A stretch of DNA of 64,000 nt from Noviherbaspirillum sedimenti. Its GTDB lineage: Bacteria; Pseudomonadota; Gammaproteobacteria; Burkholderiales; Burkholderiaceae_D. Positions 4,724 to 33,821 of the stretch are shown piece after piece (positions within the stretch are counted from its first letter, which is position 1; every line of letters begins with the position of its first letter). The notes under the pieces are model-generated. The model did no database searches and was not told the DNA's origin. It was given only the letters and a program-made list of their open reading frames with translations. The position numbers were made by a program, and so were the translations under genes. The stretch lies in NCBI RefSeq assembly GCF_003590835.1, contig NZ_QYUQ01000002.1, positions 2,232,001 through 2,296,000 of the forward strand, written 5' to 3'.

Positions 4724-4732
4724 GCAGCATCC

Positions 4733-5534: not shown

Positions 5535-5592
5535 GCGCCGCGGAGCCAGGTGCGACATGCCTGGTTCCGGGCGCATGCGCAAGGATCGCAAA

Positions 5593-5627: not shown

Positions 5628-5645
5628 AAAACACACAAAATCTCC

Positions 5646-7925: not shown

Positions 7926-7939
7926 TCGGAGTTCACAAC

Positions 7940-9595: not shown

Positions 9596-9640
9596 TCGGC
9601 GCCGGCAAACACAACTGAATAATTTATCGAGGTAAAACCC

Positions 9641-10486: not shown

Positions 10487-10518
10487 TCCCTGTCTGAACC
10501 AATATGAGAGAAAATCGC

Positions 10519-11217
10519 ATGAGTACTCCACATATCGTCAAATCCTATGACCAGGAATTGCAAACACTGGCTTCCAGCGTCGGTGCCATGGGCGACTTCA
10601 CCGGCGTGCAATTCGCCGACGCCGTCCAGTCGCTGCTGGCGCGCGACACCGTCATGGCGCAACGCGTCATCGATCAGGACCGCATGGTCGATGCGCTGCG
10701 GCGCGATTTGTCCGCCGCCGCCGCCAACGTGATCGCCCGCCGCCAGCCGGTCGCCAACGACCTCGATGAAGTGCTGGCGGAACTGCGCATCGTCGAAGAC
10801 CTGGAACGCATCGGCGACCTGGCAAAAAACATCGCCCGGCGCGCCATCACCATCGCCGCCGAACCGTTGCCCGTAGAAGTCACCGACAAGATCCGCCGCC
10901 TGGCGGCGCTGACTTCGGAGCAGTTGCGCAATGCGATCGACGCGTATATCGCGCACGATGCAGAAAAGGCCCAGGCAATGCCTGCGGATGACGACGAGAT
11001 CGATGCCCTGCACGCCGACATTTTTGCCGACATCATCGCCATGATGAACGCCAGCCAGCAGCAGGTGATCGGACTTGTACATCTGCTGTTTTGCGCGAAA
11101 AACATCGAGCGCATCGCCGACCACGCGACCCATATCGGCGAGGTCGCCTTCCAGTCGGTGAGCAGCCGCCCATCACGGCCACGGCAGTTCCAAACCGACG
11201 GCGGTGTCGGTAATTAA
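10519..11217 (+). CDS. phoU: phosphate signalling protein PhoU
   Basis: This 232-residue all-helical protein has two PhoU repeats with the metal-binding-type motifs EDLERIGDLAKNIAR and KNIERIADHATHIGE. PhoU links PstB to PhoR and represses the Pho regulon when phosphate is plentiful. I chose the ATG at 10519 because GAGAG lies about 8-10 bases upstream; an in-frame ATG at 10504 would carry that site within the gene. It closes the pstCAB-phoU run. phoB and phoR, which often follow, are not in this window. Confidence 0.94.
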   Translation: MSTPHIVKSYDQELQTLASSVGAMGDFTGVQFADAVQSLLARDTVMAQRVIDQDRMVDALRRDLSAAAANVIARRQPVANDLDEVLAELRIVEDLERIGDLAKNIARRAITIAAEPLPVEVTDKIRRLAALTSEQLRNAIDAYIAHDAEKAQAMPADDDEIDALHADIFADIIAMMNASQQQVIGLVHLLFCAKNIERIADHATHIGEVAFQSVSSRPSRPRQFQTDGGVGN

Positions 11218-11235
11218 AGAGGACAAGGGCGGGAC

Positions 11236-11862
11236 ATGCGCTTGGCGAATATCGAGGAATCCGGTGTAACGGTGCCGCCAGACGGTTGCGCTCACGCGGC
11301 CTGCCCCGGCGCCGCCACGCCTCATCCGCCCTACCGCATCCTGCTGCACCATGATGGCCAGGCTTATGTCGCGGAGGTTCCGGAATTGCCCTCCTGCAGG
11401 GGCGTAGGCGAAACGCGCGCTGACGCACTGGCGGCCGCAGAACAGGCCATGGCGACCTGGCTGCAAGAAACTCGCGTGAGTGGCGCGGCATTGCCCGCCC
11501 TGCTGGCACCAGCCGAACTGGCAAGGAATATCAGGGAACGACTTGCCGCTGCCTGCCCGGAACAAATGCCGGTGCCGAGAATGTCTCCGGTCAAACTCTT
11601 GCTGGTCAAAAAATTCGGCAAGATGTCCAATCGCGAGCTTGCTGGCCGCATCGGGCTAAGTGGCCGGGATGCGCCCACCATGCTGTCGGCAGCCGCTTCG
11701 GGCAAAGGCACGCGGCGGGCGCGCTGCGCCATTGCGCTGGCCTTGAATGCACCGCCTTCCCGCCTATGGCCGGAGCGCCCACCGGAAATCGGCCAGGACG
11801 ACGATCGCCTGTATCTTGCCTTGCGCGCCACCGCTGACGCGCGGCCAGCGTCGCCAGCTTGA
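11236..11862 (+). CDS. HicB-like protein without a HicA partner
   Basis: This 208-residue protein has a HicB-type partial RNase H fold at about 33-85 (YRILLHHDGQAYVAEVPELP, then ETRADALAAAEQAMATWLQE). The C-terminal half carries a helix-turn-helix-like stretch, SNRELAGRIGLSGRDAPTMLS. HicB proteins are usually antitoxins encoded beside the small RNase HicA. No HicA-sized gene with the dsRBD-like pattern flanks it, so it is either an orphan antitoxin or has become a DNA-binding regulator. It follows phoU by 18 bp and may be read with the pst operon. Confidence 0.7.
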   Translation: MRLANIEESGVTVPPDGCAHAACPGAATPHPPYRILLHHDGQAYVAEVPELPSCRGVGETRADALAAAEQAMATWLQETRVSGAALPALLAPAELARNIRERLAAACPEQMPVPRMSPVKLLLVKKFGKMSNRELAGRIGLSGRDAPTMLSAAASGKGTRRARCAIALALNAPPSRLWPERPPEIGQDDDRLYLALRATADARPASPA

Positions 11863-11895
11863 CTGCTGCGCTGGACAATATCTCAGACGCCTCTT

Positions 11896-11951
11896 CCGTA
11901 ACACGCTTGTAACCAAGCCGTCACGTCAACGTAATGTTTCTTATCTACACT
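11896..11951 (+). promoter_or_regulatory. PhoB box array and -10 of phoX
   Basis: Four half-sites in an 11-bp register, CCGTAAC (11896), TTGTAAC (11907), CCGTCAC (11918) and ACGTAAT (11929), lead after 10 bp to TACACT (11946-11951), a 4/6 match to -10. The middle pair equals the downstream pstS half-sites. The ATG of phoX follows at 11992. Confidence 0.8.
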
Positions 11952-11991
11952 CCCGCAGGTTATCGCCTTAACCTCAACCGGAGCAAGATGC

Positions 11992-14223: not shown

Positions 14224-14250
14224 TCAGCAACTGCGATAGCAGGTTCCGCG

Positions 14251-14294
14251 CGACGGGCTACGGTAATTACCCTTACCGTAGCCCGTCGTTTTTT
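14251..14294 (+). terminator. Rho-independent terminator of phoX
   Basis: A perfect 16-bp stem (14251-14266 with 14273-14288, starting CGACGGGC) closes a 6-base loop and is followed by six T at 14289-14294. It begins 28 bp after the phoX stop and is the strongest terminator in the window. Confidence 0.92.
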
Positions 14295-14793
14295 GAACAG
14301 TTCAACCGGCGCTGGCCAGTGTAACGAGTTGTATGCCTTCGGCGGACGTTCGTTCTCGATCTGGAACGCGGCCACCGGTGCGCGTGTGTATGACTCCGGC
14401 GACGCTTTCGAAACCATCACGTCCACGCTGGCAGGTACGCCTGGCTTCGACTTTACGTTCAACACCGGTCACGACGAATACGCATTCGACGGCCGCAGCC
14501 CCAACAAGGGCCCTGAGCCTGAAGGCGTGGTGCTGCAGCGCTTCGGTGCCAAGGTCTATGCCTTCATCAGCCTGGAGCGCGTCGGTGGCGTGATGGTGTA
14601 TGACGTGACTGCGCCGGCCGCCCCCAAGCATGCGACCTACATCAATACCCGTACCGGCGCCACCGGCGATCTCGGACCTGAGGGCCTGATCGTGATTCCG
14701 GCAGCAAAGTCGCCTAACGGCAAACCTTTGATGGTGGTCGCGAACGAAATCAGCGGCACAACGCGGATTTTCGAAATCAAGCTGACTTACTGA
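14295..14793 (+). pseudogene. C-terminal remnant of a choice-of-anchor I family protein
   Basis: About 165 codons match only the C-terminal end of large secreted choice-of-anchor I proteins, many annotated as alkaline phosphatases. Recognisable stretches are FNTGHDEYAFDGRSPNKGPE, EGVVLQRFG, ERVGGVMVYDVT, LGPEGLIVIPA and VANEISGTTRIFEI. Full-length members have well over 500 residues. Here the reading begins directly after the T-run of the phoX terminator, with no ATG, signal peptide or ribosome site, and the missing part is nowhere in the window. A 5' deletion is inferred. It keeps its stop and its own terminator. Confidence 0.75.
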
Positions 14794-14832
14794 GCAAGGC
14801 ACTGGCCGGCGCATGCCGGTCGTTCGAAAAAG

Positions 14833-14859
14833 CCCCGGGATCCGCTCCAGGGGTTTTTT
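14833..14859 (+). terminator. Rho-independent terminator after the choice-of-anchor remnant
   Basis: CCCC (14833-14836) pairs with GGGG (14850-14853) and, inside one mismatch, GGA pairs with TCC. A run of six T follows at 14854-14859. Confidence 0.7.
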
Positions 14860-14919
14860 ATGTCTTACAGAAATGCTGTGGCCGGCATATCGGCATCCGG
14901 CCTTTCGTCGACGATAGTA

Positions 14920-14953
14920 TTGTCATGGATATGTCATATTTTCAAAATATAAT
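14920..14953 (+). promoter_or_regulatory. PhoB box and consensus -10 of ppk1
   Basis: TTGTCAT (14920-14926), GGAT, ATGTCAT (14931-14937) is a near-perfect 18-bp Pho box. Exactly 10 bp later comes TATAAT (14948-14953), a full -10 consensus. The start near 14960 would give ppk1 a leader of about 150 nt. Confidence 0.85.
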
Positions 14954-15108
14954 TGAAGTTCTTTGCGCCCAAAAAGCAGCTGCCTGCATATCCGGCGTCG
15001 GTGCCCGGCCTGGCGCAGGCGCTGCGGCTGTTATAGTATGATCAATCAAACTTCTGGACGCCGTGCCAGTTCTTATTGCGCAGCCTCATGCCAACATCAC
15101 GGAGCCGC

Positions 15109-17211
15109 ATGGATCAACGTGTAAAAGCCGCCCGCAAGCCCGCAGTCGCCCCGGATGCGGCAGAGATTTTCCTGAACCGCGAATTGTCGCAGCTGGCCTT
15201 CAACCGCCGCGTGCTGGCGCAGGCCGAAGATCCCGAGATTCCCCTGCTGGAGCGGCTGCGCTTCCTGTGCATCGTCAGCAGCAACCTCGACGAATTTTTC
15301 GAAGTACGCATTGCCAGCATGCTGGCGCAGGACCAGCGCGAAGGCAACACACCAGGAACGCCTGGCTTCGTCGAGCCCCTCGAACGCATTGATGAAGAAT
15401 GCCATCAACTGGTTGAACGGCAGTATGCCGTCCTGAACCAGGAAATCCTGCCGCAACTGGCGCTCCACGGTATCCACCTGCTGCGCCACCAGGACCGCAA
15501 TGAAGCGCAACGGGCCTGGGTCAAATCCTATTTCGAACGCGAAGTGCGGCCGCTGCTCACGCCGATCGGCCTGGATCCGGCCCATCCATTCCCCCAGGTC
15601 GTCAACAAGAGCCTGAACTTCATCGTCCAACTGGCGGGCAAGGATGCATTCGGCCGCAGTACGGCCATCGCCATTCTCAAGGCGCCGCGGGTTTTGCCGC
15701 GCATTATCAAGTTGCCGCCCGAGCTGTGCGAGGATGGCATGGCATTTTGCCTGTTGTCGTCGGTGATCCATGCGCATATCGCCGACCTCTTCGCCGGCCG
15801 CGAAGTGCTGGGGTATTCGCAGTTCCGCGTCACCCGCAACAGCGACCTGTGGGTCGACGATGAGGAAGTCAAGAACCTGCGCGAAGCCTTGCAAAGCGAA
15901 TTGCAGACGCGCTCCTTCGGTTTTGGCGTGCGGCTGGAAGTCGCAAAAAATTGCCCCGAGTACCTGTCGCAATTCCTGCTGGAACAGTTTGCCATTCCGA
16001 TGCACCGCCTCTACCATGTCGACGGTCCGGTCAACATGGTGCGCCTGCTCGAACTCGTCGATTACGTCAACGCGCCGACGCTGCGCTTTGCGCCGTTTTC
16101 CCCGTCCTTTCCAGCCCGGCTTGCCGAAGGCGGCATTTTTTCCATTCTCGGCAAGCAGGACGTGCTGCTGCACCACCCTTTCCAGTCCTTCCAGCCGGTG
16201 GTCGATTTCATCCGCAGCGCCGCCAGCGACGCCAATGTGCTGGCGATCAAACAGACCATTTACCGCACCGGCATGAATTCCGACCTGATGGAAGCGCTCA
16301 TTACGGCGGCCCAGCAAGGCAAGGAAGTCACGGTAGTGGTGGAATTGATGGCGCGCTTCGACGAGGAAGCCAACATCAACTGGGCCGAACGGCTGGAACG
16401 GGTCGGCGCCCAGGTGGTGTATGGCGTGGTCGGCCTGAAGACCCATGCCAAGCTGGCGCTGGTGCTGCGCCGCGAGGAAGGCAACCTGCGCTACTATGCT
16501 CACCTCGGCACCGGCAACTACCATCCGACCACCACCAAGTTCTACACCGACTTCGGCCTGCTGACCTCGCGCCCCGAACTGACGCGCGACGTCAATGAAG
16601 TGTTCCTGCACCTGACCAGCCTGGCCAGGCCCAAGAAACTCAACCACCTGTGGCTGGCGCCGTTCGCGCTGCAAAAGGAATTGATCCGCTCGATCCAGAA
16701 CGAAGCGCGCATCGCCCGCGAAGGCCGCCCGGGGCGCATCATCGCCAAGATGAATGCCTTGCTGGACGAATCCGTGATCCGTGCGCTGTATGGTGCTTCC
16801 GACGCCGGCGTCAAGATCGACCTGATCGTGCGCGGCGCCTGCGCCTTGCGCCCGGGCGTGCCGGGACTGTCGGAAAACATCAAGGTGCGTTCGATCATCG
16901 GCCGTTTCCTCGAACATACCCGGATCTTTTACTTCCGCAACGACCTTGCCCACGATGTCTACCTGTCCAGCGCCGACTGGATGAGCCGCAACCTGTTCCG
17001 GCGCATCGAGGTCGCTTTTCCGGTGCTGGACAAGGCGCTCAAGAAGCGCGTGATCACAGAAGGCCTGAACCCCTATCTGAAGGATAACCTGAACGCCTGG
17101 GAACTCGAACCAGATGGCGGCTATCATCACAGGACGCCACGCGGCAAACAAAAACCCTACGGCGCCCAGCAAACCCTGATGCAAACCCTCGGTTCGCCGC
17201 TGGCCAAATAA
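15109..17211 (+). CDS. ppk1: polyphosphate kinase 1
   Basis: This 700-residue protein matches Ppk1 over its full length: N-terminal helical domain (FLNRELSQLAFNRRVLAQA), head domain, and two phospholipase-D-like catalytic domains. Catalytic stretches include GLKTHAKLALVLRRE, YYAHLGTGNYHPTTTKFYTD, LIVRGACALRPG and the final VYLSSADWMSRNL. It makes polyphosphate reversibly from ATP through a phosphohistidine. I chose the ATG at 15109 because GGAG lies 6-8 bases upstream; in-frame ATGs at 15076 and 15088 lack a site. sixA follows after 3 bp. The Pho box at 14920 ties polyphosphate synthesis to phosphate limitation. Confidence 0.95.
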   Translation: MDQRVKAARKPAVAPDAAEIFLNRELSQLAFNRRVLAQAEDPEIPLLERLRFLCIVSSNLDEFFEVRIASMLAQDQREGNTPGTPGFVEPLERIDEECHQLVERQYAVLNQEILPQLALHGIHLLRHQDRNEAQRAWVKSYFEREVRPLLTPIGLDPAHPFPQVVNKSLNFIVQLAGKDAFGRSTAIAILKAPRVLPRIIKLPPELCEDGMAFCLLSSVIHAHIADLFAGREVLGYSQFRVTRNSDLWVDDEEVKNLREALQSELQTRSFGFGVRLEVAKNCPEYLSQFLLEQFAIPMHRLYHVDGPVNMVRLLELVDYVNAPTLRFAPFSPSFPARLAEGGIFSILGKQDVLLHHPFQSFQPVVDFIRSAASDANVLAIKQTIYRTGMNSDLMEALITAAQQGKEVTVVVELMARFDEEANINWAERLERVGAQVVYGVVGLKTHAKLALVLRREEGNLRYYAHLGTGNYHPTTTKFYTDFGLLTSRPELTRDVNEVFLHLTSLARPKKLNHLWLAPFALQKELIRSIQNEARIAREGRPGRIIAKMNALLDESVIRALYGASDAGVKIDLIVRGACALRPGVPGLSENIKVRSIIGRFLEHTRIFYFRNDLAHDVYLSSADWMSRNLFRRIEVAFPVLDKALKKRVITEGLNPYLKDNLNAWELEPDGGYHHRTPRGKQKPYGAQQTLMQTLGSPLAK

Positions 17212-17214
17212 GCC

Positions 17215-17673
17215 ATGGACATCCTGCTCTGGCGCCATGCGGAAGCGGAGATCGGTGAACCCGATGAAGGGCGCGCCCTGACCCCCAAGGGCGTGCGGCA
17301 GGCGCAAAAGATGGCGCAATGGCTGGAGCGCAACCTGCCCAGCCGCTGCCGCATACTGGTCAGCCCGACCGTACGGACCCTGCAGACAGCGCAGGCGCTG
17401 GAACGCAAATTCAGGATATGCCCCGAAATTGCCCCCGGCGCGACACCGGAAGCGCTACTGGCCGCCGCCAACTGGCCCGACGGCAAGGAGCCGGTGCTGC
17501 TGGTGGGCCATCAGCCAAGCTTCGGCCAGGCGGCGGCCCTGCTTTTGTGCGGCAGCACGCAAGACTGGACCATACGCAAGGGCAATATCTGGTGGATCGC
17601 CCAGCGCGAACGCGACGGCTCCAGCGACAATTACCTCAAGGCCGTGGTGGCGCCTGACCTGGTGATGAAGTAA
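17215..17673 (+). CDS. sixA: SixA-type histidine phosphatase
   Basis: This 152-residue protein belongs to the histidine phosphatase (phosphoglycerate-mutase-like) superfamily. The catalytic RH motif is at the very start (LLWRHAEAE), LVSPTVRTLQTAQ supplies the second arginine region, and the second histidine is in VLLVGHQPSFGQ. SixA removes phosphate from phosphohistidine in signalling and PTS-type proteins. It starts 3 bp after ppk1 and is almost surely cotranscribed with it, a common pairing in betaproteobacteria. The substrate here is unknown. Confidence 0.9.
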   Translation: MDILLWRHAEAEIGEPDEGRALTPKGVRQAQKMAQWLERNLPSRCRILVSPTVRTLQTAQALERKFRICPEIAPGATPEALLAAANWPDGKEPVLLVGHQPSFGQAAALLLCGSTQDWTIRKGNIWWIAQRERDGSSDNYLKAVVAPDLVMK

Positions 17674-17676
17674 GGT

Positions 17677-18747
17677 TCATGCAACCGAAGATTCGGACAT
17701 TTCGCCCAGATGCAGTATCGAAGGCGGAAAGGCAGCGGCGGGCCTGGTTTTGGCGGCCGGCCGCAGATTGCGAAGAAATTGCTGGGTCGCCGCTTCCCAT
17801 GAGTATTTCAATGCATGCTGCCGGACTTGCTCGCGCGGCAGGCGCAGCGCCTCGAAGCAGGCGCGTTCAATGTCGTGGTCGAGCACACCGGTCTTGCCCT
17901 GTTCGACCACATCGATTGGACCGGCCACCGGATAGGCGGCAACCGGCACCCCGCACGCCATCGCTTCCAGCATGACCAGCCCAAAAGTATCGGTCAGGCT
18001 GGGGAAGACCAGGACATCGGCACAGTTGTAATACGGCGCCAGCTTGTCGTGCGCACGCGCGCCGAGGAAGTGTACCGATGGATAGCGGCGTTCGAGCGAC
18101 TCGCGCTGCGGGCCGTCGCCGATGACCCATTTGGTGCCCGGCAAACCCATTGCCAGGAAGGCGTCGATATTTTTTTCCACCGCCAGGCGGCCGACGTACA
18201 GGTAGAGCGGGCCTTCGATGCCGGCGTGCTCGCGTGCGAGCGGCTTGAAGTGGCCCGTGTCGACACCCCTGCCCCACAAGACCAGCTTGCCGAAGCCGCG
18301 CTGCGCCAGATCGTGCATGACGGCCGGAGTCGATACCATGACGGCACTGGCCGGCTCATGGAACCAGCGCAGCCAACGGTAGCTCAAGCCTAGCGGCAGC
18401 ATGAAACGGGCGCGGATGTATTCCGGAAAGCGGGTGTGGTAGGACGTCGTGAAACGCAAACCCTGACGCAGGCAGTAGCTGCGCGTGGCCAGCCCGATCG
18501 GCCCTTCGGTGGCAATGTGGATACAATCCGGTGCAAAGGCATCGATGGCCTGGGCGACCTTGCGGTACGGCCGGTACGCCAGGCGAATTTCCGGATAAGT
18601 GGGACAGGAAAATGTCCGCATGTTTGCCGCTGACAGGACCAGCACGTCGTGCCCCAGCCGCTCCAGGCGCTCACGCGTCGCCATGAGCGTATTGACGACG
18701 CCGTTGACCTGCGGCGCCCAGGCGTCGGTGGCGATTACGATACGCAT
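17677..18747 (-). CDS. GT4 glycosyltransferase, Agt-like (glycolipid synthesis in lipid remodelling)
   Basis: This 356-residue GT-B enzyme starts with IVIATDAWAPQVNGVVNTL, has the nucleotide-sugar domain stretch YVGRLAVEKNIDAFL, and carries TDTFGLVMLEAMACGVPVAAYPV. The usual EX7E acceptor motif appears as DX7E, as I recall for this subgroup. Similar enzymes (Agt) lie next to PlcP in phosphate-starved alphaproteobacteria and put sugars on the diacylglycerol that PlcP releases. I chose the ATG at 18747 because GGAG lies just upstream. It overlaps plcP by 13 bp. The function is inferred from family and context; a mannosyltransferase for another lipid is possible. Confidence 0.78.
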   Translation of the reverse strand: MRIVIATDAWAPQVNGVVNTLMATRERLERLGHDVLVLSAANMRTFSCPTYPEIRLAYRPYRKVAQAIDAFAPDCIHIATEGPIGLATRSYCLRQGLRFTTSYHTRFPEYIRARFMLPLGLSYRWLRWFHEPASAVMVSTPAVMHDLAQRGFGKLVLWGRGVDTGHFKPLAREHAGIEGPLYLYVGRLAVEKNIDAFLAMGLPGTKWVIGDGPQRESLERRYPSVHFLGARAHDKLAPYYNCADVLVFPSLTDTFGLVMLEAMACGVPVAAYPVAGPIDVVEQGKTGVLDHDIERACFEALRLPREQVRQHALKYSWEAATQQFLRNLRPAAKTRPAAAFPPSILHLGEMSESSVA

Positions 18748-19610
18748 AATTCTCCGCTTGTTGCTGCCCTGGCTTGTTTCTGCAGTCCCATGATTTCTTG
18801 CCAGCTGACCAGGCGCAATTCGCCATTCAGGTCTTCCACCAGCGCCGACAGGCTTTCTACCCAGTCGCCATCGTTGCAATAGGTGATGCCGTCGATATCG
18901 CGGATTTCCGGCTTGTGGATATGACCGCAAATCACGCCGTCCAGCCCCTTCTTCTTGGCTTCCGCCGCCAGCGCATGTTCGAACGAGCTGATGTAGCTGA
19001 CCGCGTTCTTGACCTTCAGTTTCAGGTATTGCGACAGCGACCAGTATGGCAAGCCGGCACGGGCGCGCCAGCTGTTGTACACCTGGTTGAACTTCAGGAT
19101 CACGGTGTAAAGACTGTCGCCGACATAGGCCAGCCACTTGGCGCAGGCGATCACGCCATCGAAGCGGTCGCCGTGCAGCACCAGCATGCGCTTGCCTTGC
19201 GCCGTCACGTGCACCAGCTCGTCGCGGATGCGGATGCCGCCGAAATCGAGATCGATGAACTGGCGCACCGCTTCATCATGGTTGCCCGGGACGAAGATGA
19301 CTTCGGTGCCTTTCTTCGCTTTCTTCAGTACCGTCTGCACCACGTTGTTGTGGGTCTGGTCCCAGTACCAACGGCGTTTCAGTTGCCAGCCATCGATGAT
19401 GTCGCCGACCAGGTACAGCGTTTGCGATTCAGTCGCGCGCAGAAATTCCAGCAGGCGGGCCGCCTGGCAGCCGGTAGTGCCGAGATGGATATCGGAAATC
19501 CAGATGGCGCGAAAGCGGGTGCCATTGTGCCCCCTCTCCGACGCCGTCGACCGGTCCGCGGCTTGATGCTCGCGGAATGCGTCTGCCAGAAACTGCTCGC
19601 TCGGCTTCAT
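18735..19610 (-). CDS. plcP: PlcP-like metallophosphoesterase (phospholipid turnover)
   Basis: This 291-residue calcineurin-type phosphoesterase of the LpxH-like group (COG2908 type) has its metal motifs intact: ISDIHLG at about 38-44, LVGDIIDGW, VPGNHDE, LHGDRFD and CGHIHKP. These proteins are often labelled UDP-2,3-diacylglucosamine hydrolases. The insert-rich pattern LKRRWYWDQTHNNVVQ and YWSLSQYLKLKVKNAV resembles Sinorhizobium PlcP, which degrades phospholipids to diacylglycerol under phosphate starvation. It sits between an OlsB-like acyltransferase (ATGA overlap) and an Agt-like glycosyltransferase, downstream of a Pho box, which favours PlcP over a lipid A role. Confidence 0.8.
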   Translation of the reverse strand: MKPSEQFLADAFREHQAADRSTASERGHNGTRFRAIWISDIHLGTTGCQAARLLEFLRATESQTLYLVGDIIDGWQLKRRWYWDQTHNNVVQTVLKKAKKGTEVIFVPGNHDEAVRQFIDLDFGGIRIRDELVHVTAQGKRMLVLHGDRFDGVIACAKWLAYVGDSLYTVILKFNQVYNSWRARAGLPYWSLSQYLKLKVKNAVSYISSFEHALAAEAKKKGLDGVICGHIHKPEIRDIDGITYCNDGDWVESLSALVEDLNGELRLVSWQEIMGLQKQARAATSGELCVS

Positions 19611-20377
19611 GCTGCGCGCGCCTCCAGAAAGTGACGGGCATAGCGGCTGTCAAGATTGGCCAGCGGCATCAGCATGAACAGGTCGATGCAATTGAAATCA
19701 GGATCCCAGGCCGGTTCGCCGCACACCCAGGCACCGCTGCGCAGGTAACCCTTGATCAGCGGCGGGATAAAGGCGCCCTGATGCTCCGGATTGCGTTCGC
19801 CCACCGGGAACGGCAGGCGCGGGCGCACCCGGTATTCTGCCGGAGCGATGTTGTTCTCGTTTAAGGTATGGTAGATCGACAGCGCATTCTGGCCGCCATC
19901 GGCCAGGCTGACGCTGGCGCAGCCGATCAGGTAATGGCAGTTTTCCTTTTTCAGGTAATCCGCCAGGCCTGCCCACAACAGCATGATGACGGCGCCGCTG
20001 CGGTAATCCGGGTGGATGCAGGCGCGGCCGGCCTCGGCCATATTCGGGCGCAAATGGTTCAGACGCGACAGTTCGAACTCCTGCTCGGAGTAGTAGAGGC
20101 CGATGCGGCGCGCCGCATGCGGACTCAGGACGCGGTAGGTGCCGATCACCTTCAGCGAGCGGGCGTCACGCACGATCAGGTGGTCGCAGTGCTGATCGAA
20201 TTCGTCGCGATCCAGCCGTTCGGCATTGGCCAGGGCGGACAGCCCCATGCCTTCGACGAACACCTGGTAACGCAGGCGCTGCACCTCGCGCACCTCTTCC
20301 GGGGTACTGGCAAGGCTGAGAACGAACTTCGAGGAACTAGACGGGTTTTCCGCCGGAGCCGCATTCAGTTGACGCAT
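19607..20377 (-). CDS. olsB: OlsB-like ornithine N-acyltransferase (GNAT fold)
   Basis: This 256-residue GNAT-like acyltransferase of the OlsB/hemolysin-type family has VQRLRYQVFVEGMG, CDHLIVRDARSLKVIGTYRV, EAGRACIHPDYRSGAVIMLL and LIGCASVSL. OlsB adds a 3-hydroxyacyl chain to ornithine, the first step to phosphorus-free ornithine lipids; OlsA is not in the window. It is the first gene of the operon olsB-plcP-agt, with a 4-bp overlap to plcP. A three-half-site PhoB array lies at 20436-20464, about 60 bp before the start. Some relatives act on other amino acids, so substrate identity is inferred. Confidence 0.78.
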   Translation of the reverse strand: MRQLNAAPAENPSSSSKFVLSLASTPEEVREVQRLRYQVFVEGMGLSALANAERLDRDEFDQHCDHLIVRDARSLKVIGTYRVLSPHAARRIGLYYSEQEFELSRLNHLRPNMAEAGRACIHPDYRSGAVIMLLWAGLADYLKKENCHYLIGCASVSLADGGQNALSIYHTLNENNIAPAEYRVRPRLPFPVGERNPEHQGAFIPPLIKGYLRSGAWVCGEPAWDPDFNCIDLFMLMPLANLDSRYARHFLEARAA

Positions 20378-20419
20378 GGATCATCATCCTGGTTATGAAG
20401 ATGATCCAAGCGTAACGAT

Positions 20420-20464
20420 AGATTACTTCGAGAAAATGACAGTTCCGTGTCAGTTTAATGACAT
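20420..20464 (-). promoter_or_regulatory. PhoB box and -10 of olsB-plcP-agt
   Basis: On the minus strand ATGTCAT (20464-20458), CTGACAC (20453-20447) and CTGTCAT (20442-20436) recur every 11 bp. After 10 bp comes TAATCT (20425-20420), a weak -10. The start of transcription would fall near 20413, about 36 nt before the olsB ATG. Confidence 0.78.
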
Positions 20465-20518
20465 GACAACACCCGGCGGGACGCATACCTCGCCGCAAGC
20501 GAGGGGTTTACGAGGGGC

Positions 20519-20998
20519 TTACTTCGCCTTCTTGGGGCGTCCCGCCTTCAGTGACGGCAGCGTCGCCAAAACCTGCTGCAGCTGAGCGACATCGGCGCGC
20601 TGCATCAGCGCCACACCGACGCGCAACAGTTCGCTCTTCTTGACTTCAAAACCGGCCTTGATGCAGGCTTTCTTGAGGTCGGCCAGAACCTTGTACTCGG
20701 CTTCGGGCATGGTGAAACTGTCCCGCACCAGCTTGGGCTTCTTGGGCTTGTCCTTGGGCGCGGCCAACGCTGCGGCTGGTGCAACTGCGTTGGATTTCGC
20801 CGGCACGGCTTTCCTGGAGACGACCGGCTTGACGGCGCCTGGCGGCGTCGGTGCCGGCTTGGCTACGGCAGCCGGCTTGGCTGCTGCGGCCGGTTTGCGA
20901 ATGGCGTCCGCAGGCTGGGCGGCGGCCTTGCGCGGCGGCGTCGCCACGGCTTTGGTGGACGCCTTGGCGGGCGCTTTGGTCGGAACTTTGCTTGCCAT
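20519..20998 (-). CDS. Lys/Ala/Pro-rich basic protein with conserved C-terminal domain
   Basis: This 159-residue protein has a low-complexity basic N-terminal 85 residues built of Lys, Ala and Pro (like AKAPAKASTKAVATPP), similar in composition to histone H1-like tails. The conserved-looking C-terminal domain is SFTMPEAEYKVLADLKKACIKAGFEVKKSELLRVG. That domain resembles a small helical, ribbon-helix-helix-like fold, but I cannot name the family. I chose the ATG at 20998 because GGAAG lies 6 bases upstream within an earlier in-frame ATG codon context. It may bind nucleic acid or polyphosphate; that is a guess from charge and position next to ppx. Confidence 0.65.
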   Translation of the reverse strand: MASKVPTKAPAKASTKAVATPPRKAAAQPADAIRKPAAAAKPAAVAKPAPTPPGAVKPVVSRKAVPAKSNAVAPAAALAAPKDKPKKPKLVRDSFTMPEAEYKVLADLKKACIKAGFEVKKSELLRVGVALMQRADVAQLQQVLATLPSLKAGRPKKAK

Positions 20999-21057
20999 GT
21001 CGCTTCCTTTCATAAAATGGTATAAATAATATATACAATTTTATTCAAAAAGACAAC

Positions 21058-22509
21058 TTAATTGCGTACTACAAACTCGATACCGGCTTCGGCCCACCAC
21101 TCCTGTTCCTTCTCGATCCAGTAGGCCAGCGTGGCGTGCTGACGACTCCAGTCGCGCCGGATCTCGAGCTCGATACGGCTTTTCATTTTCACGCGCAGTT
21201 CGTCGGCCAATACATCGATGCGCGAATGCATGGCCATCACGGCCAGGCGCAGGGCCAGTACCGCCTTGGCGAAATCGGCATCGGCCAGCATGCCGTTGAG
21301 CTTGCGCAGATTGCCTTTATGGCCGAGCACCAGCTTGCTCAACAGGCGCTGCTCGCCAGTGGTAAACCCGGGCAGGTCGGCGTTTTCGATCATGTAGGCG
21401 CCATGCTTGTGATAGCCGCTGTGCGACACCACCATGCCGACCTCATGCAGCAGGCCGCTCCAGTACAACTGCCTTTCGTAGGCATTCGAGGACGGCTTCA
21501 ATTGCGCATACAGGCCGCTGGCGATTTGCGCAACGCGGTCGGCGCGCGTGGCATCGAGCGCAAAGCGTTCGAGGAAACCCTGCACGGAGAGTTCGCGGCG
21601 ATCGCGCCGGGTGGCGCGCAATTGCAGATCGCGCAAGACGCCCATGCGCAGACCGGCTTCGAGCGGCTGCAGGTTCTTGACGCGCAACTCGCGCAAGACG
21701 CCCATCAGCACGGCCAGCCCGCCCATGATGATGGCGGCGCGGTCCGGCTTCATGCCGAGCAGGTCGATCCTGCCGACATGGCCGAACTCGATCAGGCGTG
21801 CCTTGAGCGCTTCCATGCTCTTGTAGGAGAGCTTGCCGTCGCCCAGGGAATTCCTGACAATGGCATCGGCGATGGCGCGGATGGTGCCGGAAGAACCGTA
21901 GACGCTGCCCCATTGCCGTTCCAGGAAAGCCGGCACGCCATCTTCGAAATGACTGCGCGCCGACAGGATCGCCTTGTCGAAGGCTTCCTCGGTGATGAAA
22001 CCGTCGGGAAAGAAGGCGTGGCTGTGGCTGACCGTACCGATGCTGAAGGATTCCACCAAATCGATACCGAAACCCTGGCCGACGATCAGTTCGGTCGAGC
22101 CACCGCCGATGTCGATCACCAGGCGCCGCTCCTCGGGGGAACCGAGCACGCTGGCCACCCCCATGTAGATCAGGCGCCCTTCCTCTTCGCCGGAAATGAT
22201 TTCGATCGGATGACCGATTGCCTGCTCCGCTGCCGGCAGGAACGCTGCGGCATTCTTGGCAATGCGCAAGGTGTTGGTGGCAACCACGCGCACCCCATCC
22301 AGCGGATAGGCGTTCAATACTGTGCGAAAGCGCGCCAGCGAATCGAGTGCAGCCTGTATCGCCGCGTCGGTCAGGAACATGTTCTTGTCAAGACCGGCAC
22401 CCAGCCGGATCGGATCGCGCTCGCTCTTGACGATGCGGATGGCATCGCCATCCTGCCTGCCGATATGCAAACGAAAACTGTTCGAACCCAAATCCACTGC
22501 CGCCAGCAT
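21058..22509 (-). CDS. ppx: exopolyphosphatase, Ppx/GppA family
   Basis: This 483-residue protein has the ASKHA-fold phosphate loops LAAVDLGSNSFRLHIGR at the start and VIDIGGGSTELIV at about 130-142. The stretches ISGEEEGRLIYMGV and GSSGTIRAIADAI also belong to the family. A C-terminal HD-like domain follows (WSGLLHEVGMVVSHSGYHKH). It hydrolyses polyphosphate, or pppGpp, from the chain end. The gene lies on the opposite strand from ppk1 and outside its operon. It and the basic protein downstream share a strand, 59 bp apart. Confidence 0.92.
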   Translation of the reverse strand: MLAAVDLGSNSFRLHIGRQDGDAIRIVKSERDPIRLGAGLDKNMFLTDAAIQAALDSLARFRTVLNAYPLDGVRVVATNTLRIAKNAAAFLPAAEQAIGHPIEIISGEEEGRLIYMGVASVLGSPEERRLVIDIGGGSTELIVGQGFGIDLVESFSIGTVSHSHAFFPDGFITEEAFDKAILSARSHFEDGVPAFLERQWGSVYGSSGTIRAIADAIVRNSLGDGKLSYKSMEALKARLIEFGHVGRIDLLGMKPDRAAIIMGGLAVLMGVLRELRVKNLQPLEAGLRMGVLRDLQLRATRRDRRELSVQGFLERFALDATRADRVAQIASGLYAQLKPSSNAYERQLYWSGLLHEVGMVVSHSGYHKHGAYMIENADLPGFTTGEQRLLSKLVLGHKGNLRKLNGMLADADFAKAVLALRLAVMAMHSRIDVLADELRVKMKSRIELEIRRDWSRQHATLAYWIEKEQEWWAEAGIEFVVRN

Positions 22510-27759: not shown

Positions 27760-27793
27760 CCGTCACACTGTTGTCATGTGCAGCGGTTATGGT
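27760..27793 (+). promoter_or_regulatory. PhoB box and -10 of a candidate small RNA
   Basis: CCGTCAC (27760-27766), ACTG, TTGTCAT (27771-27777), exactly 10 bp, then TATGGT (27788-27793, 4/6 match to -10). The same spacing occurs at the pstS and ppk1 promoters. No coding gene follows before the terminator at 27917-27944. Confidence 0.65.
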
Positions 27794-27799
27794 TATGCC

Positions 27800-27944
27800 T
27801 GTCAACTCAGACATGCAGGTTTTTAGCGATTCCGCGCATGCCCCTGAACCCTGGCAAGCACCCGATGCATTTCGTCGTGTGCGTCTCCTCTTTCTTCTCC
27901 GAGATCTGGAGTTTTGCCCGCTGCATTCCTGCAGCGGGTTTTTT
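27800..27944 (+). ncRNA. candidate PhoB-controlled small RNA of about 145 nt
   Basis: This is an otherwise gene-free interval with a Pho-type promoter at one end and a strong terminator at the other. The start near 27800 is inferred from the -10. Every plus-strand reading frame that opens inside runs through the terminator stem, and none has a ribosome site, so a noncoding transcript is the simpler reading. A 17-base pyrimidine tract at 27884-27900, TCTCCTCTTTCTTCTCC, could pair with purine-rich ribosome-binding sites. I do not recognise a known family. Confidence 0.5.
27917..27944 (+). terminator. orphan Rho-independent terminator
   Basis: CCCGCTGC (27917-27924) and GCAGCGGG (27931-27938) form a perfect 8-bp stem with a 6-base loop, followed by six T. 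The only annotated gene upstream is on the other strand, so it must end an unannotated plus-strand transcript. Confidence 0.88.
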
Positions 27945-28114: not shown

Positions 28115-29869
28115 GTGTGCCGTCAATTGCTGCGCCAGCTGCTGTACCGTCTGTTGCGCGCGCTCGGCGTGCTGCTATGGCTGGCCGCGGCCGGCACGGC
28201 GCATGCTTATACCGTTGAAATCCAGGGTGCCGGACAATTTTCCAAACTGCTCGACTTGCACCTGGACATCCGCCGCCATCAAGACGATCCTGACATCTCC
28301 GACGAGGAATGGCGCCGCCTGGCGGGCATCACGCCGCAGCAAATCCGCGAATTGCTCGCCACCGAAGGGTATTTCTCGCCCGTCGTCACCGCGGAGCTGC
28401 TGACCGAGGGCGACCAGCGGCTGGCGCGCTTTCGCATCGAACCTGGCGCGCCGACCACCATCGAAACGGTCGATATCCGCTTTCACGGCGCGGTGGTCGA
28501 CGCCTATCCCCAGCGCGTCGAACGCCTGCGCCGCCAATGGGGCCTGAAGCCGGGCGAGCGGTTTACCCAATCCGCCTGGAGCGATGCCAAGAATGCCCTG
28601 CTGAAAGGTTTGCTGGTGCGCGATTACCCGGCCGCCGCCATCCGCACCAGCGAAGCGCGCATTGAACCGGAACAGCGGCGCGCCACGCTGGTCGTCGAGA
28701 TCGATTCCGGCCCCGCCTTCACCTTCGGCGAACTGCAGATCGAAGGCTTGCAGCGTTACTCGCGCGCCATGATCGACGGCCTCAACCCGATCCAGCCCGG
28801 CGAACGGTATTCTCAGGAAAAGCTGAATGAATTGCAGTCGCGCCTGACCGACACCGGCTATTTCAGTTCGGCATTCCCCAGCATCGACCTCGATCCGGCC
28901 CACCCGCAGCACGTCCCGGTCAAGCTCAACGTGGCGGAAAACCAGCGCAAGCATCTGGGGCTGGGGCTGGGCTTTTCCACCGATACCGGCGCTGGCGTGC
29001 AGGTAAAATGGCTGGACCGTAATTTCCTGCAACGCGACTGGCGCTTGCAGACACAGCTGGAATTGAATCGCGAGACCAGTCTGCTCGACGGCGCATTGTA
29101 TTTGCCCGCCAGGCGCAACGGCTGGATTCCCAATTTTAATGCGCGCTTCGAGCGCAGCACCACCGCCGGCGAAATCATTGACAAGATCCGCGCCGGCGCA
29201 CGCATGAGCACCCCCAGCCGTATCGACGAACGTTCCGCCGGCATCGCCTTTTTCGCCGACAACCAGAAACTGCCGGACGGCAGCGTCAACAATCGCCAGG
29301 CTCTTATCGCCGCCTACAGCTATACGCGCCGGCGCGTCGACAACCTGCTCACGCCGCGCCGCGGCTACGTGGCGTCGCTCGAATTCGGCGCCGGCCCCAA
29401 GGGAGTGGTCAATGAGGCCAATATCGTGCGCATGGCTGGCCGCGCCACCTGGCTCGCGCCGCTGCAGCGCAACTGGCAAAGCGTATTGCGCGGCCAGATC
29501 GGCCAAGTATTGATCGCCGATCGCACCAGAGTGCCAGGCGACCTGCTGTTCCGTACCGGCGGCGCCCAGAGCGTGCGCGGTTATGGCTTTGAAACCCTGG
29601 GCGTGCAACAGGGCGGCGCCGTGGTCGGTGGCCGCGTGGTGGCGGTGGCGAGCGCGGAACTGGTGTACCGGATCACGCCGCAATGGGGCGCCGCCGTCTT
29701 CCATGACGCCGGCAATGCCGCCGACAGCTGGCGCAATTTCAAATTCGTCCATGGCAGCGGCATCGGCGCACGCTGGCGCAGCCCGATCGGCCCGGTCAAC
29801 CTCGACCTCGCCTACGGCCATGCGACCAGCGAGCCGCATCTGCATTTTTCGGTCGGCTATGTCTTCTGA
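28115..29869 (+). CDS. tamA: TamA, Omp85-family outer-membrane assembly factor
   Basis: With the GTG at 28115 (GAGGA 8-10 bases upstream) the protein has 584 residues and a clean signal peptide ending TAHA near residue 32. In-frame ATGs at 28031 and 28049 would add residues before the signal peptide and lack a ribosome site. Three POTRA domains (about 35-270) precede a 16-strand-type barrel with the Omp85 signature GGAQSVRGYGFETLG near 485-500 and a C-terminal phenylalanine. With TamB it inserts and folds outer-membrane proteins. tamB overlaps it by 11 bp. Confidence 0.9.
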   Translation: MCRQLLRQLLYRLLRALGVLLWLAAAGTAHAYTVEIQGAGQFSKLLDLHLDIRRHQDDPDISDEEWRRLAGITPQQIRELLATEGYFSPVVTAELLTEGDQRLARFRIEPGAPTTIETVDIRFHGAVVDAYPQRVERLRRQWGLKPGERFTQSAWSDAKNALLKGLLVRDYPAAAIRTSEARIEPEQRRATLVVEIDSGPAFTFGELQIEGLQRYSRAMIDGLNPIQPGERYSQEKLNELQSRLTDTGYFSSAFPSIDLDPAHPQHVPVKLNVAENQRKHLGLGLGFSTDTGAGVQVKWLDRNFLQRDWRLQTQLELNRETSLLDGALYLPARRNGWIPNFNARFERSTTAGEIIDKIRAGARMSTPSRIDERSAGIAFFADNQKLPDGSVNNRQALIAAYSYTRRRVDNLLTPRRGYVASLEFGAGPKGVVNEANIVRMAGRATWLAPLQRNWQSVLRGQIGQVLIADRTRVPGDLLFRTGGAQSVRGYGFETLGVQQGGAVVGGRVVAVASAELVYRITPQWGAAVFHDAGNAADSWRNFKFVHGSGIGARWRSPIGPVNLDLAYGHATSEPHLHFSVGYVF

Positions 29870-32800
29870 AGCGCCAGCACCACCACGGCGCCGCCGGCGT
29901 CTCGTGTCCGCTGCCCTGGCGCTGGCTGCCCTTGGCTTGCTGGCGCTGTTCGTCTGGCTGGGCGCGACCACCGGCGGCGCACGCGCGGTGCTGTCGGCGC
30001 TGGCCGCCGCCAGCGGCGGCAACGTCCGGATCGGCGCAGTCGACGGCCGGCTGACCGGGCCCTTGCATCTGCAGCAGTTGACCCTGCAGAGCGCCGGCCT
30101 GCAAACGGAACTGCAGGATATCCGTCTCGACTGGCGGCCGCAGGCGCTTTTGCAGGGACGCCTGCATGTCACGACGCTGCGCATCGGCACAATCCAGATC
30201 AGGCAACGCATCGGCCAGCCGGCAACCCCGGCCGCACTGCCGGCGAGCCTTTCCCTGCCGTTGCGGCTGAACATCGACAGTGTGCAAGTCGGCCGCGGCA
30301 GGCTCGACTGGGGCGCCTTGAATGTGGTCGAACTGGGCGCTTTCACCATGCACCTGGATTACGATGGCGCGCGCTACCGCCTCGCGCTCGAAAAACTGAC
30401 GGCCAGTACCGATATGCAGAGCGACGCCGCTACTGGCGCTGCCGGCGCCCGGGTGGGCAAGTTCCACGGCAGCATGCGCGGCCAGGCCGAGCTGGCCGAC
30501 ACCCGGCCTTACCCGCTCAGCGGCGTCTTTCACGCCGAGGCCGACGCGCTCATCGGGCAACAGCGTCTAGCCGGCGCCGGCAAGCTGCAGCTCGACGGCA
30601 GTCTGGCGCAACTGCAAACCGGCATGGACTTTGCCATGGGTGCCGCCAGCCTCAAGGGGCGGGCGCGCTTGCAGCCGTTTTCCGATTTACCACTGGGCGA
30701 CGCCGAAATCAACCTGCAGGGACTGGACCTTGCCGTATTCGGCGCCGGCTTGCCGCGCACCCGCCTCAGCGGCAAGCTGGCAACCAGCACCGCAGGCGGC
30801 ACGCTGACGCTGACCAACGCGGAAGCGGGCACTTACGACGCCGGCCGCCTGCCGCTGCGCGCGCTGTCGAGCCGATTCCGCCAGGATGCGCAGGGGCTGC
30901 ACTTCGACGCCATTGCCGCGGCGCTCGGTGCCGCCGCCGAACCGGCGGGCGACATCCGCGGCAGCGCTCAGCTTGCCAAGGGCACGCTGGACCTGGCGCT
31001 GGCGACAACAGCGCTCGACCTGCGCCGACTCGACCGCCGCGTGCTTGCCACCCGCCTGGCCGGCAATGCCGTCGTGCGGCATGTCGCCGGCCGCCAGGAA
31101 TTCACGCTGGAACTGTCCGAACCACTGCAAAGCCGCCGCCTGGCATTGTCGGCACAGGCCACGCTGGCCGACGAGGCGCTGGCGCTGCAACGCGCCGAAC
31201 TCAGGCTGGGCGACGGCACGCTGCGCGCCAGCGGCCGCCAGCAGCTGACCGGCAAGCGGGAATTTTCCGCCAGCGGCGTCGTCAGCCGCTTCCATCTGCA
31301 AGACCTTGGACGGTTCAACGGCTTTCCCGATCTGTACCTGAACGGCGAATTCTCCCTCAGCGGCGCACTGGCGCCGCAGCTCACCGCCGCACTGGATTTT
31401 CGCATCGCCGACAGCCGCCTGGCGAACCAGCCCCTGCAAGGGAATGGACGCGCCCGTCTGCATGCCGACAGCCTGGATATCCCGAAACTGACGCTCGCAG
31501 CCGGCGTCAACCGACTCGATATCGCCGGCCAGCTGCAGCCACAGGGTGGCCAATTGACGTTCGCGCTGGCCGCCCCCAGCCTGGCGCAATTCGGCGCGGG
31601 ATTTGCCGGCGCGCTCGAAGCCAAAGGCACGGCACGCGGCAGCTTCACGCGCCCGCGCATCGCCGCCGAATGGCATGCCAGCCATTTACGCCTGCAGGAC
31701 TTGCTGCAGCTCGACAGCCTGCATGGCAGCGGCGAGCTGGATCTGGACCGCAAGGCGCCCTGGCTGCTGGGCCGCGCCAGCATGGACGCCACCGCCCAGG
31801 GCGTGCGCAGCGGCGCCGCAAAAGCCGAAAGCCTGGCGGCGTCCCTGCGTTTCGCACCGCCCGCCAATGCGCCGCTGACGCTGCAAGTACGTGCGCAAAA
31901 AATCGCCGCAGCGGATTACCGCGCCGACAGCCTCACTGTCGATGCCAGCGGCACCACCGGCCGCCACACTTTGGTCGCCAGCCTGGCGCAGGCAGGACAG
32001 CAATGGCGCCTGCAGGCCAGCGGCGCACTGCAGGCGCAAGCGCTGCGCTGGCAAGGCAGCATCGACCAGCTAAGCGGCAGCGGCCGCCTGCAGGCACGGC
32101 TTGCAGGCGCCGCGCCGCTGGAAGTTTCGCGCCAGCGCATCGAGCTGCGGCAATTCCGGCTGGAAATGGACGACGCCATTCTGGCGATTGAACAATTACG
32201 GCGCGACGAGCAAGGCATCCAGACGCGCGGGCGCTTTGAACATCTGCCGCTGGCGGCATTATTGCCCTACCTGCGGCCACAGCCGGATATCAGTACCGAC
32301 CTGCTGTTCGGAGGGGAATGGGATGTCCGGCTGGCGGGCGTGCCGAGCGGCACGCTATCGCTGCGGCGCGAGCGTGGCGACCTTGCCACGCGCGGCATGG
32401 CGCCGGTGGCGCTGGGTCTCACGCGCCTGGAAGCCAGCGCCCGCGCCGGCAGCGGCAAACTTCAGTTGCAGCTGCATGCCGATGGCGCCAACCTGGGCAG
32501 CATTGAAGTCGACGCCGGCCTGGCGCTGGGCGGCGCGGGCCGCTTCGGCATCTCGCCGCAGTCGGCACTGTCCGGCGGCGCCAGACTCACGGTTCCCACG
32601 CTGCGCTGGGCTGCGCCGATGATTGCCGCCACCGCCATCGCCGATGGCAGCCTGGACGGCGCACTCAGCATTGCCGGCAGCCTGGCCGCACCACGCCTGG
32701 CTGGCCAGGTCAACGGTCGCAGTTTGCGCCTGGCCCTGCCCGACCTCGGGGTGGATTTGCGCGGCGGCAGCCTTGCTGCCAGCTTCCAGGATACCCGGCT

Positions 32801-33821
32801 GCTGGTGCACAACCTCACTTTCGCACAAGGCCCCGGCAAGCTGAGCATTGCCGGACCGATCGATCTGGCCGGCGCCCAGCCCGACGTGCAACTGACGCTC
32901 AAAGCCGAACGCTACCCCCTGCTGGTACGCAGCGACCGCAAGCTGGTGGTCAGTGGCGATGGCGCAGTCAGCCTGCGCGAGGGACGCCTGCAGGCAACTG
33001 GTGGCTTCACTGCGGATTCCGGCCTGATCGATATCGGCCAGGCCGACAGGCCGACGCTGTCTGACGACGTGGTGGTGGTCGGCGCGACGCCAAGGAAAGC
33101 AGTCACGCCGCTGGCGCTGGACCTGGTGATCGGACTGGGTGAAGGGATTGTCATCCGCGGACGTGGCATAGATGCCGTGCTGGTCGGGCAATTGCAGTTC
33201 AAAAACGATGCCGGCGAACAACTGAAGGCGCAAGGCGCCATGCGTATCGTGCGCGGCACGTTTGCCGCCTATGGCCGCAAGCTCGATATCGAAAAGGGCT
33301 TGCTGTACTTTAACGGCCCGCCCGGCAATCCCGGCCTCGACATCCTGGCGATGCGACGCGGCCAGCAAGTCGAAGCCGGCGTCGCCGTGCTCGGCACCGC
33401 ACTGACGCCGCGCATCGTGCTGGTGTCGGAACCGGCGGTGGCGGATGCGGAGAAACTCTCCTGGCTGGTGCTCGGGCGCGGACTTGATGCCGCCACCGGC
33501 GGCGCCGACCTGGCGGCCCTGCAGGATGCGGCTGCCTCACTCTTGACCCAGGGTGCTGCCGCCGGCGTGCAAGCCGGGCTGGCGGGCGCCTTCGGACTGG
33601 ACCAGTTAAGCTTGGGCACCAGCAGCGACAGCCTGCAGCAGCGCATCGTCACCATCGGCAAGCAAGTTTCGTCGCGCCTGCATATCGGCATCGAACAAGG
33701 GCTGGAAACCGCCAGCAGTGTATTGCTGCTGCGCTATACGATTTCGCGCAAGCTCAGCCTGGAAATCGACACCGGCGCCCGCTCCGCATTCACCCTGTTC
33801 TATAACTTTGCCTTCGATTGA
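29859..33821 (+). CDS. tamB: TamB, inner-membrane-anchored translocation module
   Basis: This 1320-residue protein starts with a short basic stretch and one membrane anchor (about 14-36). A very long beta-rich periplasmic body follows, and the conserved DUF490/TamB domain ends it (about 1000-1320, with RIVRGTFAAYGRKLDIEKGL, FNGPPGNPGLDILAMR and the final TLFYNFAFD). It bridges the periplasm and works with TamA, and is also implicated in lipid transport between membranes. The ATG at 29859 lies inside the tamA stop region, so translation is coupled. The frame is open upstream to 29583, inside tamA, which is rejected. Confidence 0.92.
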   Translation: MSSEAPAPPRRRRRLVSAALALAALGLLALFVWLGATTGGARAVLSALAAASGGNVRIGAVDGRLTGPLHLQQLTLQSAGLQTELQDIRLDWRPQALLQGRLHVTTLRIGTIQIRQRIGQPATPAALPASLSLPLRLNIDSVQVGRGRLDWGALNVVELGAFTMHLDYDGARYRLALEKLTASTDMQSDAATGAAGARVGKFHGSMRGQAELADTRPYPLSGVFHAEADALIGQQRLAGAGKLQLDGSLAQLQTGMDFAMGAASLKGRARLQPFSDLPLGDAEINLQGLDLAVFGAGLPRTRLSGKLATSTAGGTLTLTNAEAGTYDAGRLPLRALSSRFRQDAQGLHFDAIAAALGAAAEPAGDIRGSAQLAKGTLDLALATTALDLRRLDRRVLATRLAGNAVVRHVAGRQEFTLELSEPLQSRRLALSAQATLADEALALQRAELRLGDGTLRASGRQQLTGKREFSASGVVSRFHLQDLGRFNGFPDLYLNGEFSLSGALAPQLTAALDFRIADSRLANQPLQGNGRARLHADSLDIPKLTLAAGVNRLDIAGQLQPQGGQLTFALAAPSLAQFGAGFAGALEAKGTARGSFTRPRIAAEWHASHLRLQDLLQLDSLHGSGELDLDRKAPWLLGRASMDATAQGVRSGAAKAESLAASLRFAPPANAPLTLQVRAQKIAAADYRADSLTVDASGTTGRHTLVASLAQAGQQWRLQASGALQAQALRWQGSIDQLSGSGRLQARLAGAAPLEVSRQRIELRQFRLEMDDAILAIEQLRRDEQGIQTRGRFEHLPLAALLPYLRPQPDISTDLLFGGEWDVRLAGVPSGTLSLRRERGDLATRGMAPVALGLTRLEASARAGSGKLQLQLHADGANLGSIEVDAGLALGGAGRFGISPQSALSGGARLTVPTLRWAAPMIAATAIADGSLDGALSIAGSLAAPRLAGQVNGRSLRLALPDLGVDLRGGSLAASFQDTRLLVHNLTFAQGPGKLSIAGPIDLAGAQPDVQLTLKAERYPLLVRSDRKLVVSGDGAVSLREGRLQATGGFTADSGLIDIGQADRPTLSDDVVVVGATPRKAVTPLALDLVIGLGEGIVIRGRGIDAVLVGQLQFKNDAGEQLKAQGAMRIVRGTFAAYGRKLDIEKGLLYFNGPPGNPGLDILAMRRGQQVEAGVAVLGTALTPRIVLVSEPAVADAEKLSWLVLGRGLDAATGGADLAALQDAAASLLTQGAAAGVQAGLAGAFGLDQLSLGTSSDSLQQRIVTIGKQVSSRLHIGIEQGLETASSVLLLRYTISRKLSLEIDTGARSAFTLFYNFAFD

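Follow-up and report, generated by a model that had tools for sequence, protein, structure and literature searches.

A candidate PhoB-controlled small RNA gene at the edge of a Pho island, resembling the double-hairpin RNAs of family RF02278

The small RNAs (sRNAs) closest in style to the locus described here belong to the Rfam family RF02278 ('Betaproteobacteria toxic sRNA'). The RF02278 RNAs of B. cenocepacia form double hairpins and carry CU stretches complementary to ribosome sites (PMC5688073). Overexpression of one of them, ncS27, attenuated planktonic growth and was without significant effect on biofilms (PMC5688073), and, according to a review, ncS27 influences genes for carbohydrate transport as well as catabolic genes for amino acids (PMC10987360). 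The role of the family in B. cenocepacia was called unknown in 2015 (PMC4603805). Four RF02278 RNAs were reported for Herbaspirillum seropedicae (PMC7011215). The primary transcript of S17 of B. pertussis, ~190 nt long, is shortened to a form of 67 nt, and S17 represses genes by acting at their ribosome sites or close to them; when overexpressed in E. coli, it had a modest growth effect and was not clearly toxic (PMC11722255).

PhoB-driven sRNAs are scarcely documented in the searchable literature. For EsrL of E. coli, PhoB control was proposed and is disputed, PhoB binding at esrL not having been seen in K-12 (PMC10294691). In S. meliloti, sRNAs with PhoB sites were predicted (PMC2573895), and a PhoB-induced sRNA acting on rpoS is mentioned in PMC8829014. 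A further candidate precedent (PMC12506140) was set aside, as its sRNAs, according to the accessible text, act on phoB and are not driven by PhoB. Literature searches, with most subscription journals outside their scope, returned nothing on PhoB-dependent sRNAs by such phrases, nothing joining sRNA, phosphate starvation, Betaproteobacteria and PhoB, and nothing on sRNA in Paucimonas lemoignei. The examined parts of published RF02278 accounts contain no link to Pho control.

Promoter, terminator and conservation of the unit

The DNA analysed is a stretch of 64,000 nucleotides (the window), for which an earlier sequence-only reading had proposed an sRNA gene between a Pho-type promoter and an intrinsic terminator. 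Pho promoters consist of two CTGTCAT-like repeats 11 bp apart, located 10 bp before the -10 element. This arrangement was found at 27760-27793, letter for letter as described: CCGTCAC (27760-27766), ACTG (27767-27770), TTGTCAT (27771-27777), 10 bp, and TATGGT (27788-27793). The consensus agrees with the query quoted in the accessible part of PMC2573895. The six T of the terminator were confirmed at 27939-27944; its stem, described as a perfect one of 8 bp, is slightly longer, with nine Watson-Crick pairs and one G-U (27916-27925 with 27930-27939). The pyrimidine tract comprises exactly the 17 bases claimed. Folding of the 146-nt strand gave z = -3.66, none of 200 shuffles being equally stable, and much of this stability is that of the terminator. 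Coordinates are compiled in Table 1.

Table 1. Positions of the putative sRNA gene, its elements and neighbouring genes in the window
Feature	Position	Strand	Basis and remarks
Pho box, two 7-bp repeats, GTCA cores 11 bp apart	27760..27777	+	Sequence reading; GTCAY-N5-TGTCAY in 4/4 orthologues
-10 element TATGGT, 10 bp 3' of Pho box	27788..27793	+	TATNNT at equal 10-bp distance in 4/4 orthologues
Predicted sRNA, ~145 nt	27800..27944	+	Start inferred from -10, end from T run; conserved in 4/6 genus genomes
Pyrimidine tract with two CU boxes (GTCTCCTCT from 27883, TCTCC to 27900), proposed ribosome-site-pairing region	27884..27900	+	Boxes invariant in 4/4 orthologues
First hairpin, CUCC..GGAG with inner UCUU..GAGA	27885..27911	+	Predicted; hairpin at that place in G003 paired differently
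Intrinsic terminator, 10 pairs then T run	27916..27944	+	Conserved in 4/4 orthologues
Pho island: pstS, pstC position, pstA, pstB, phoU, phoX, ppk, histidine phosphatase, OlsB-like, ppx-like	3743..22509		Context
MCP gene, nearest upstream	25401-27335	minus	
tamA and tamB, downstream neighbours	28118..33821	+	Context; tamA start uncertain, 28031 or 28118

Sites that look like terminators are no more frequent than expected (4 found against 4.3 in 4 kb), and loose Pho boxes with up to two mismatches are not particularly rare either (17 in the window against 8.8 expected, about twofold; 17 was reached in 3 of 100 shuffles), so that conservation bears much of the argument. Conservation in relatives had been named beforehand as a test, and by DNA search the unit from promoter to terminator was found to be kept in four of six genomes of the genus (Paucimonas): the own genome, G001, G002 and G003, with an orthologue in Paucimonas lemoignei DSM 7445. 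At the search depth used, it was not found in the genus genomes G004 and G005. The tamA of G004 is 58% identical; its 900 upstream bases are free of the unit, and the surrounding 16 kb do not contain GTCTCCTCT. In G005 (an 87%-complete assembly) there was no close tamA. The whole unit was not found beyond the genus among 392 family genomes, five others of which match only short stretches of ~32-65 bases. A wider contig scan yielded four places, namely two orthologues, one place in Corynebacterium and one in a Planctomycetota MAG. The latter two had no terminator or Pho box on inspection and look like chance.

Pairwise identity among the four orthologues was 67-83% in the Pho box, 67-83% in the -10 element and 20-50% in the 10-bp spacer between them. 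Values were 33-59% for the upstream flank, 44-75% for the 5' part of the RNA, 73-95% for the stretch from GTCTCC to GAGAT, 71-90% for the terminator and 18-43% for the DNA past it. The spacing between Pho box and -10 element is exactly 10 bp, and the latter reads TATNNT, in all four. The Pho box, its 10-bp spacing, TATNNT, the CU boxes and the terminator persist while spacer and flanks drift. The pyrimidine tract is unbroken in two of the four orthologues (own and G001); in G002 and G003, the two CU boxes are separated by purines. Two hairpins were predicted in all four, the first of which pairs unlike that of RF02278 and, in G003, unlike the other three.

The absence of a credible plus-strand gene was also borne out: when frames of at least 12 codons were listed in all four orthologous transcripts, no reading frame persisted across them. 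A conserved coding frame had been named beforehand as a finding that would refute the sRNA reading. A small protein of ~50 residues could be read from the ATG at 27814, which is common, with about ten codons, to the own sequence and G002. The frame shifts between these two at the CU tract, the start is absent from G001 and G003, and the terminator lies inside the frame, which makes such a protein very improbable. The interval could instead be a tamAB leader in which PhoB drives tamA and the terminator serves as an attenuator or lets some transcripts through, and tamA indeed lies downstream in the same direction in all four orthologous places. This explanation has little chance of being correct in view of the strong terminator, the poor conservation (18-43%) and varying length (roughly 170 to 380 bp) of the DNA between terminator and tamA, and the presence in G004 of a tamA without such a unit.

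Phosphate control and genomic neighbourhood

A strict Pho-promoter pattern, GTCAY-N5-TGTCAY-N9-11-TANNNT, was built from the four RNA promoters. The pattern is rare: three sites were found in the 64-kb window versus none in 100 shuffles, and nine in the four genomes versus one reversed control. Four of the nine are the RNA promoters, by construction. Among the other five, two precede ppk (own genome and G003), one precedes a gene with 5'-nucleotidase and metallophosphatase domains, and one precedes the GGDEF-EAL gene of the Pho island; the fifth is located 338 bp from a gene with no evident phosphate role. PhoB is encoded in the own genome (297.2 bits, cut-off 296.2) and was over the cut-off in three of five genomes including the own, the best matches in G002 and G003 being 2-4 bits short.

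The Pho island fills the left half of the window, and the sRNA locus adjoins it. Its PstS family protein, PstA, PstB, PhoU and polyphosphate kinase were over NCBIfam cut-offs; the OlsB-like acyltransferase, LpxH-like metallophosphatase and Ppx/GppA protein were below them; PhoX, the histidine phosphatase and the permease at the pstC position were assigned by Pfam. In G001, the unit is flanked directly by a ppx-like gene on one side and tamA on the other, and genes resembling ppk and pstS come next (names from sequence reading). The proposed Pho control is supported by how seldom the strict pattern occurs and by the genes it accompanies, as well as by the adjoining Pho island and the encoded PhoB. 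The nearest upstream gene, encoding the MCP, is on the opposite strand, as had been stated.

Other features of the window were recorded as well. Pho-like boxes precede the MCP gene at 27402-27418 and 27682-27698 (minus strand; both loose, 2 mismatches), and the strict site before the GGDEF-EAL gene is at 22634-22667 (plus strand). Boxes at these places hint at a coupling of chemotaxis and c-di-GMP turnover to phosphate. The genes for the OlsB-like acyltransferase and the metallophosphatase (18735-20377, minus strand) are located behind overlapping Pho-like boxes at 20436-20463. This arrangement suggests that membrane lipids are remodelled in dependence on phosphate. Rfam 5_ureB_sRNA (RF02514) matched with 148.7 bits at 52857-53143 on the minus strand, antisense to the urease alpha-subunit gene (52708-54408); the model may just be scoring conserved urease coding DNA.

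Kinship with RF02278 RNAs

No Rfam match at gathering scores was obtained at the sRNA locus. RF02278 scored 24.0 bits with the own sequence, 29.1 with G002, 26.5 with G001 and 19.2 with G003 against a cut-off of 50, and by score the sRNA is not a member of this family. The best Rfam bit score was that of anti-hemB (RF02837), whose 29.6 bits against a cut-off of 49.5 place the RNA outside that family as well. Matches to GlmZ, mmgR, Hrs10 and Trp_leader were disregarded, being far below cut-off. The 5' CU box of RF02278 (UGUCUCCUC) was recovered: GTCTCCTC is present in all four orthologues, preceded by T in G002 and by C in the others.

R1, a model built on five rows of the 3' core, one of them from genus g4, had matches in 370 of the 392 family genomes (E <= 0.1), and only in the four orthologues did these exceed 80 bits. 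Seven other R1 loci were scanned (L034, L035, L036, L039, L040, L043, L047) and showed RF02278 over the cut-off. The family-wide hits of R1 lean towards RF02278 because of the g4 sequence among its rows, and a second model (R2) was therefore made of the four orthologues without the terminator. Over 34 sources comprising 229 kb, the only matches of R2 besides the four orthologues were a pair of RF02278 copies at L035, one with 20.0 bits (E 1.3e-4) and one with 15.1 bits (E 0.005). Since 29 of the 34 sources had been fetched for RF02278 copies, those of the other 28 were not matched by R2. Shuffle tests were done with 28 RF02278 copies after removal of GTCTCCTC, the letters being shuffled singly 500 times, with uncorrected p values. 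The L035 copy matched all four orthologues at p <= 0.002; among the other 27 copies, 11 matched the own sequence and one another orthologue at p < 0.025, uncorrected.

Descent from the double-hairpin family RF02278, with divergence and extension at the 5' end, is likely from these comparisons. Convergence, that is, a genus-specific PhoB-controlled sRNA whose CU boxes and hairpins arose independently of RF02278, is the less probable account. It draws on the RF02278 scores of 19.2-29.1 bits against a cut-off of 50, on the observation that without GTCTCCTC most of the 28 copies match the orthologues no better than shuffles do, and on the 5' part, which has no counterpart in RF02278 copies. Against it stand the terminator-free model, which in 229 kb finds nothing besides the orthologues and the two L035 RF02278 copies, and the L035 copy itself, matching all four orthologues at p 0.002 or less.

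The own genome contains eight RF02278 copies over the cut-off (contig C2). None of the nine strict Pho sites was near an RF02278 copy over the cut-off, and these copies have common upstream motifs other than Pho boxes. The best Pho-box letter score was determined for 24 copies of RF02278 type in the genus, of which 22 exceed the cut-off and which include 6 of the 8 own; it was 7-9, except for 11 at L118, a site without GTCA cores, and the Pho-type units scored 10-11. The g4 locus L006/L026 was considered as a Pho-controlled relative and rejected: its near twin L034 is RF02278 over the cut-off, and no second GTCA core accompanies its TGTCAT at a distance of 11 bp.

Oxalobacteraceae carry RF02278-type RNAs in multiple copies, and in some relatives R1 matches are 180-800 bp apart, as if in tandem (G211, G200, G097, G079). 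Just past an RF02278 copy of a g4 genome, a group II intron match (RF02001, 100.8 bits) was recorded at L034 1661-1831. In the own genome, a sub-threshold RF02278-like RNA (39.7 bits) lies at C2:2221295-2221362, ~10.7 kb left of the window and beyond the other end of the island; G002 and G003 likewise have sub-threshold RF02278-like places, at distances of ~33 kb and ~40 kb from their units.

Candidate targets, proposed function and comparison with described RNAs

Candidate target leaders were defined as AGAGGAGAC-N1-8-ATG, of which the four genomes contain 13 versus 2 in reversed controls. Seven are in the own genome, including those of an AMP-binding enzyme, two solute-binding proteins, a Rieske ring-hydroxylase and a lipase. 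By sequence reading, G001 also has the AMP-binding leader, G003 the lipase leader, and G002 and G003 each a Rieske-type leader; no candidate leader is common to all four genomes. The extended site GGAGACRCAC-N0-5-ATG gave 11 matches in the four genomes versus 1 control. One such place, common to G000, G001 and G003, was discarded as a ribosome site because the frame that it opens has just two codons. A hydrolase leader with the extended site recurs in G001 and G002 only. Predicted duplex energies were -18.7 to -28.7 kcal/mol for the seven leaders and -7.9 to -24.0 for 29 gene starts of the window, a gap that carries no weight, since the leaders were chosen for complementarity and it is largely the result of this selection. 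RF02278 copies are predicted to be able to pair with the same leaders, so that phosphate, through the Pho-type RNA, would be one more input on targets that these RNAs have in common.

The best explanation of the locus, to which we assign a probability of about 0.7, is that it encodes a trans-acting sRNA of ~145 nt, activated by PhoB, with CU boxes that block ribosome sites of the AGAGGAGAC type. At low phosphate, phosphorylated PhoB would bind the repeats at 27760-27777 and recruit RNA polymerase to TATGGT; transcription would start near 27800 and stop at the intrinsic terminator, and the RNA would perhaps be processed to ~65-70 nt. By analogy, the RNA would use its CU boxes GUCUCCUCU and UCUCC to bind purine-rich ribosome sites, AGAGGAGAC for example, and mRNAs concerned with the uptake and breakdown of carbon compounds would be translated less. 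The molecule most probably descends from the RF02278 double-hairpin RNAs, from which its Pho promoter and longer 5' part set it apart. Sister RF02278 RNAs could pair with the same leaders; a distinct role of the candidate sRNA is therefore only putative.

More tentatively, and with odds somewhat against it, a PhoB promoter at the border of the Pho island may have taken control of one branch of the ribosome-site-blocking RNAs that Betaproteobacteria carry in multiple copies. Phosphate shortage would then directly brake translation for uptake and breakdown of carbon compounds, amino acids and aromatics, and sister copies would answer other signals via the same mRNA sites. If true, this would provide a concrete route from phosphate shortage to slower carbon use and would assign a signal to one branch of the RF02278 family.

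Compared with described systems, the locus itself is new, as the sequence-only reading had claimed; its style is not, since it resembles described double-hairpin RNAs of the RF02278 type. EsrL, the S. meliloti predictions and the rpoS-acting sRNA share with it a proposed PhoB input; they come from other bacterial classes and are likened to it here by this input alone. The likeness to anti-hemB (RF02837) consists of CU stretches and a terminator. S17 of Bordetella pertussis is similar in having a long primary RNA, a CU-rich short form at the 3' end and ribosome-site targets, processing of the window RNA being presumed. It differs in being made from a constitutive-type promoter, with higher levels in the Bvg+ mode and no Pho control noted in the accessible part of the account (PMC11722255). 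Closest are the RF02278 double-hairpin RNAs, for which the accessible descriptions of B. cenocepacia ncS03, ncS05, ncS27 and ncS62 (PMC5688073, PMC4603805) give a GUCUCCUC box followed by two hairpins, the first with another CU box and the second a terminator, and predicted ribosome-site pairing. The locus here resembles them in its CU boxes, terminator and predicted pairing with ribosome sites; two hairpins are likewise predicted, the first of them paired otherwise than in the family. Unlike these RNAs, the window sRNA has ~80 nt of extra 5' sequence and a Pho-type promoter, and no such promoter is within reach of the eight own RF02278 copies over the cut-off.
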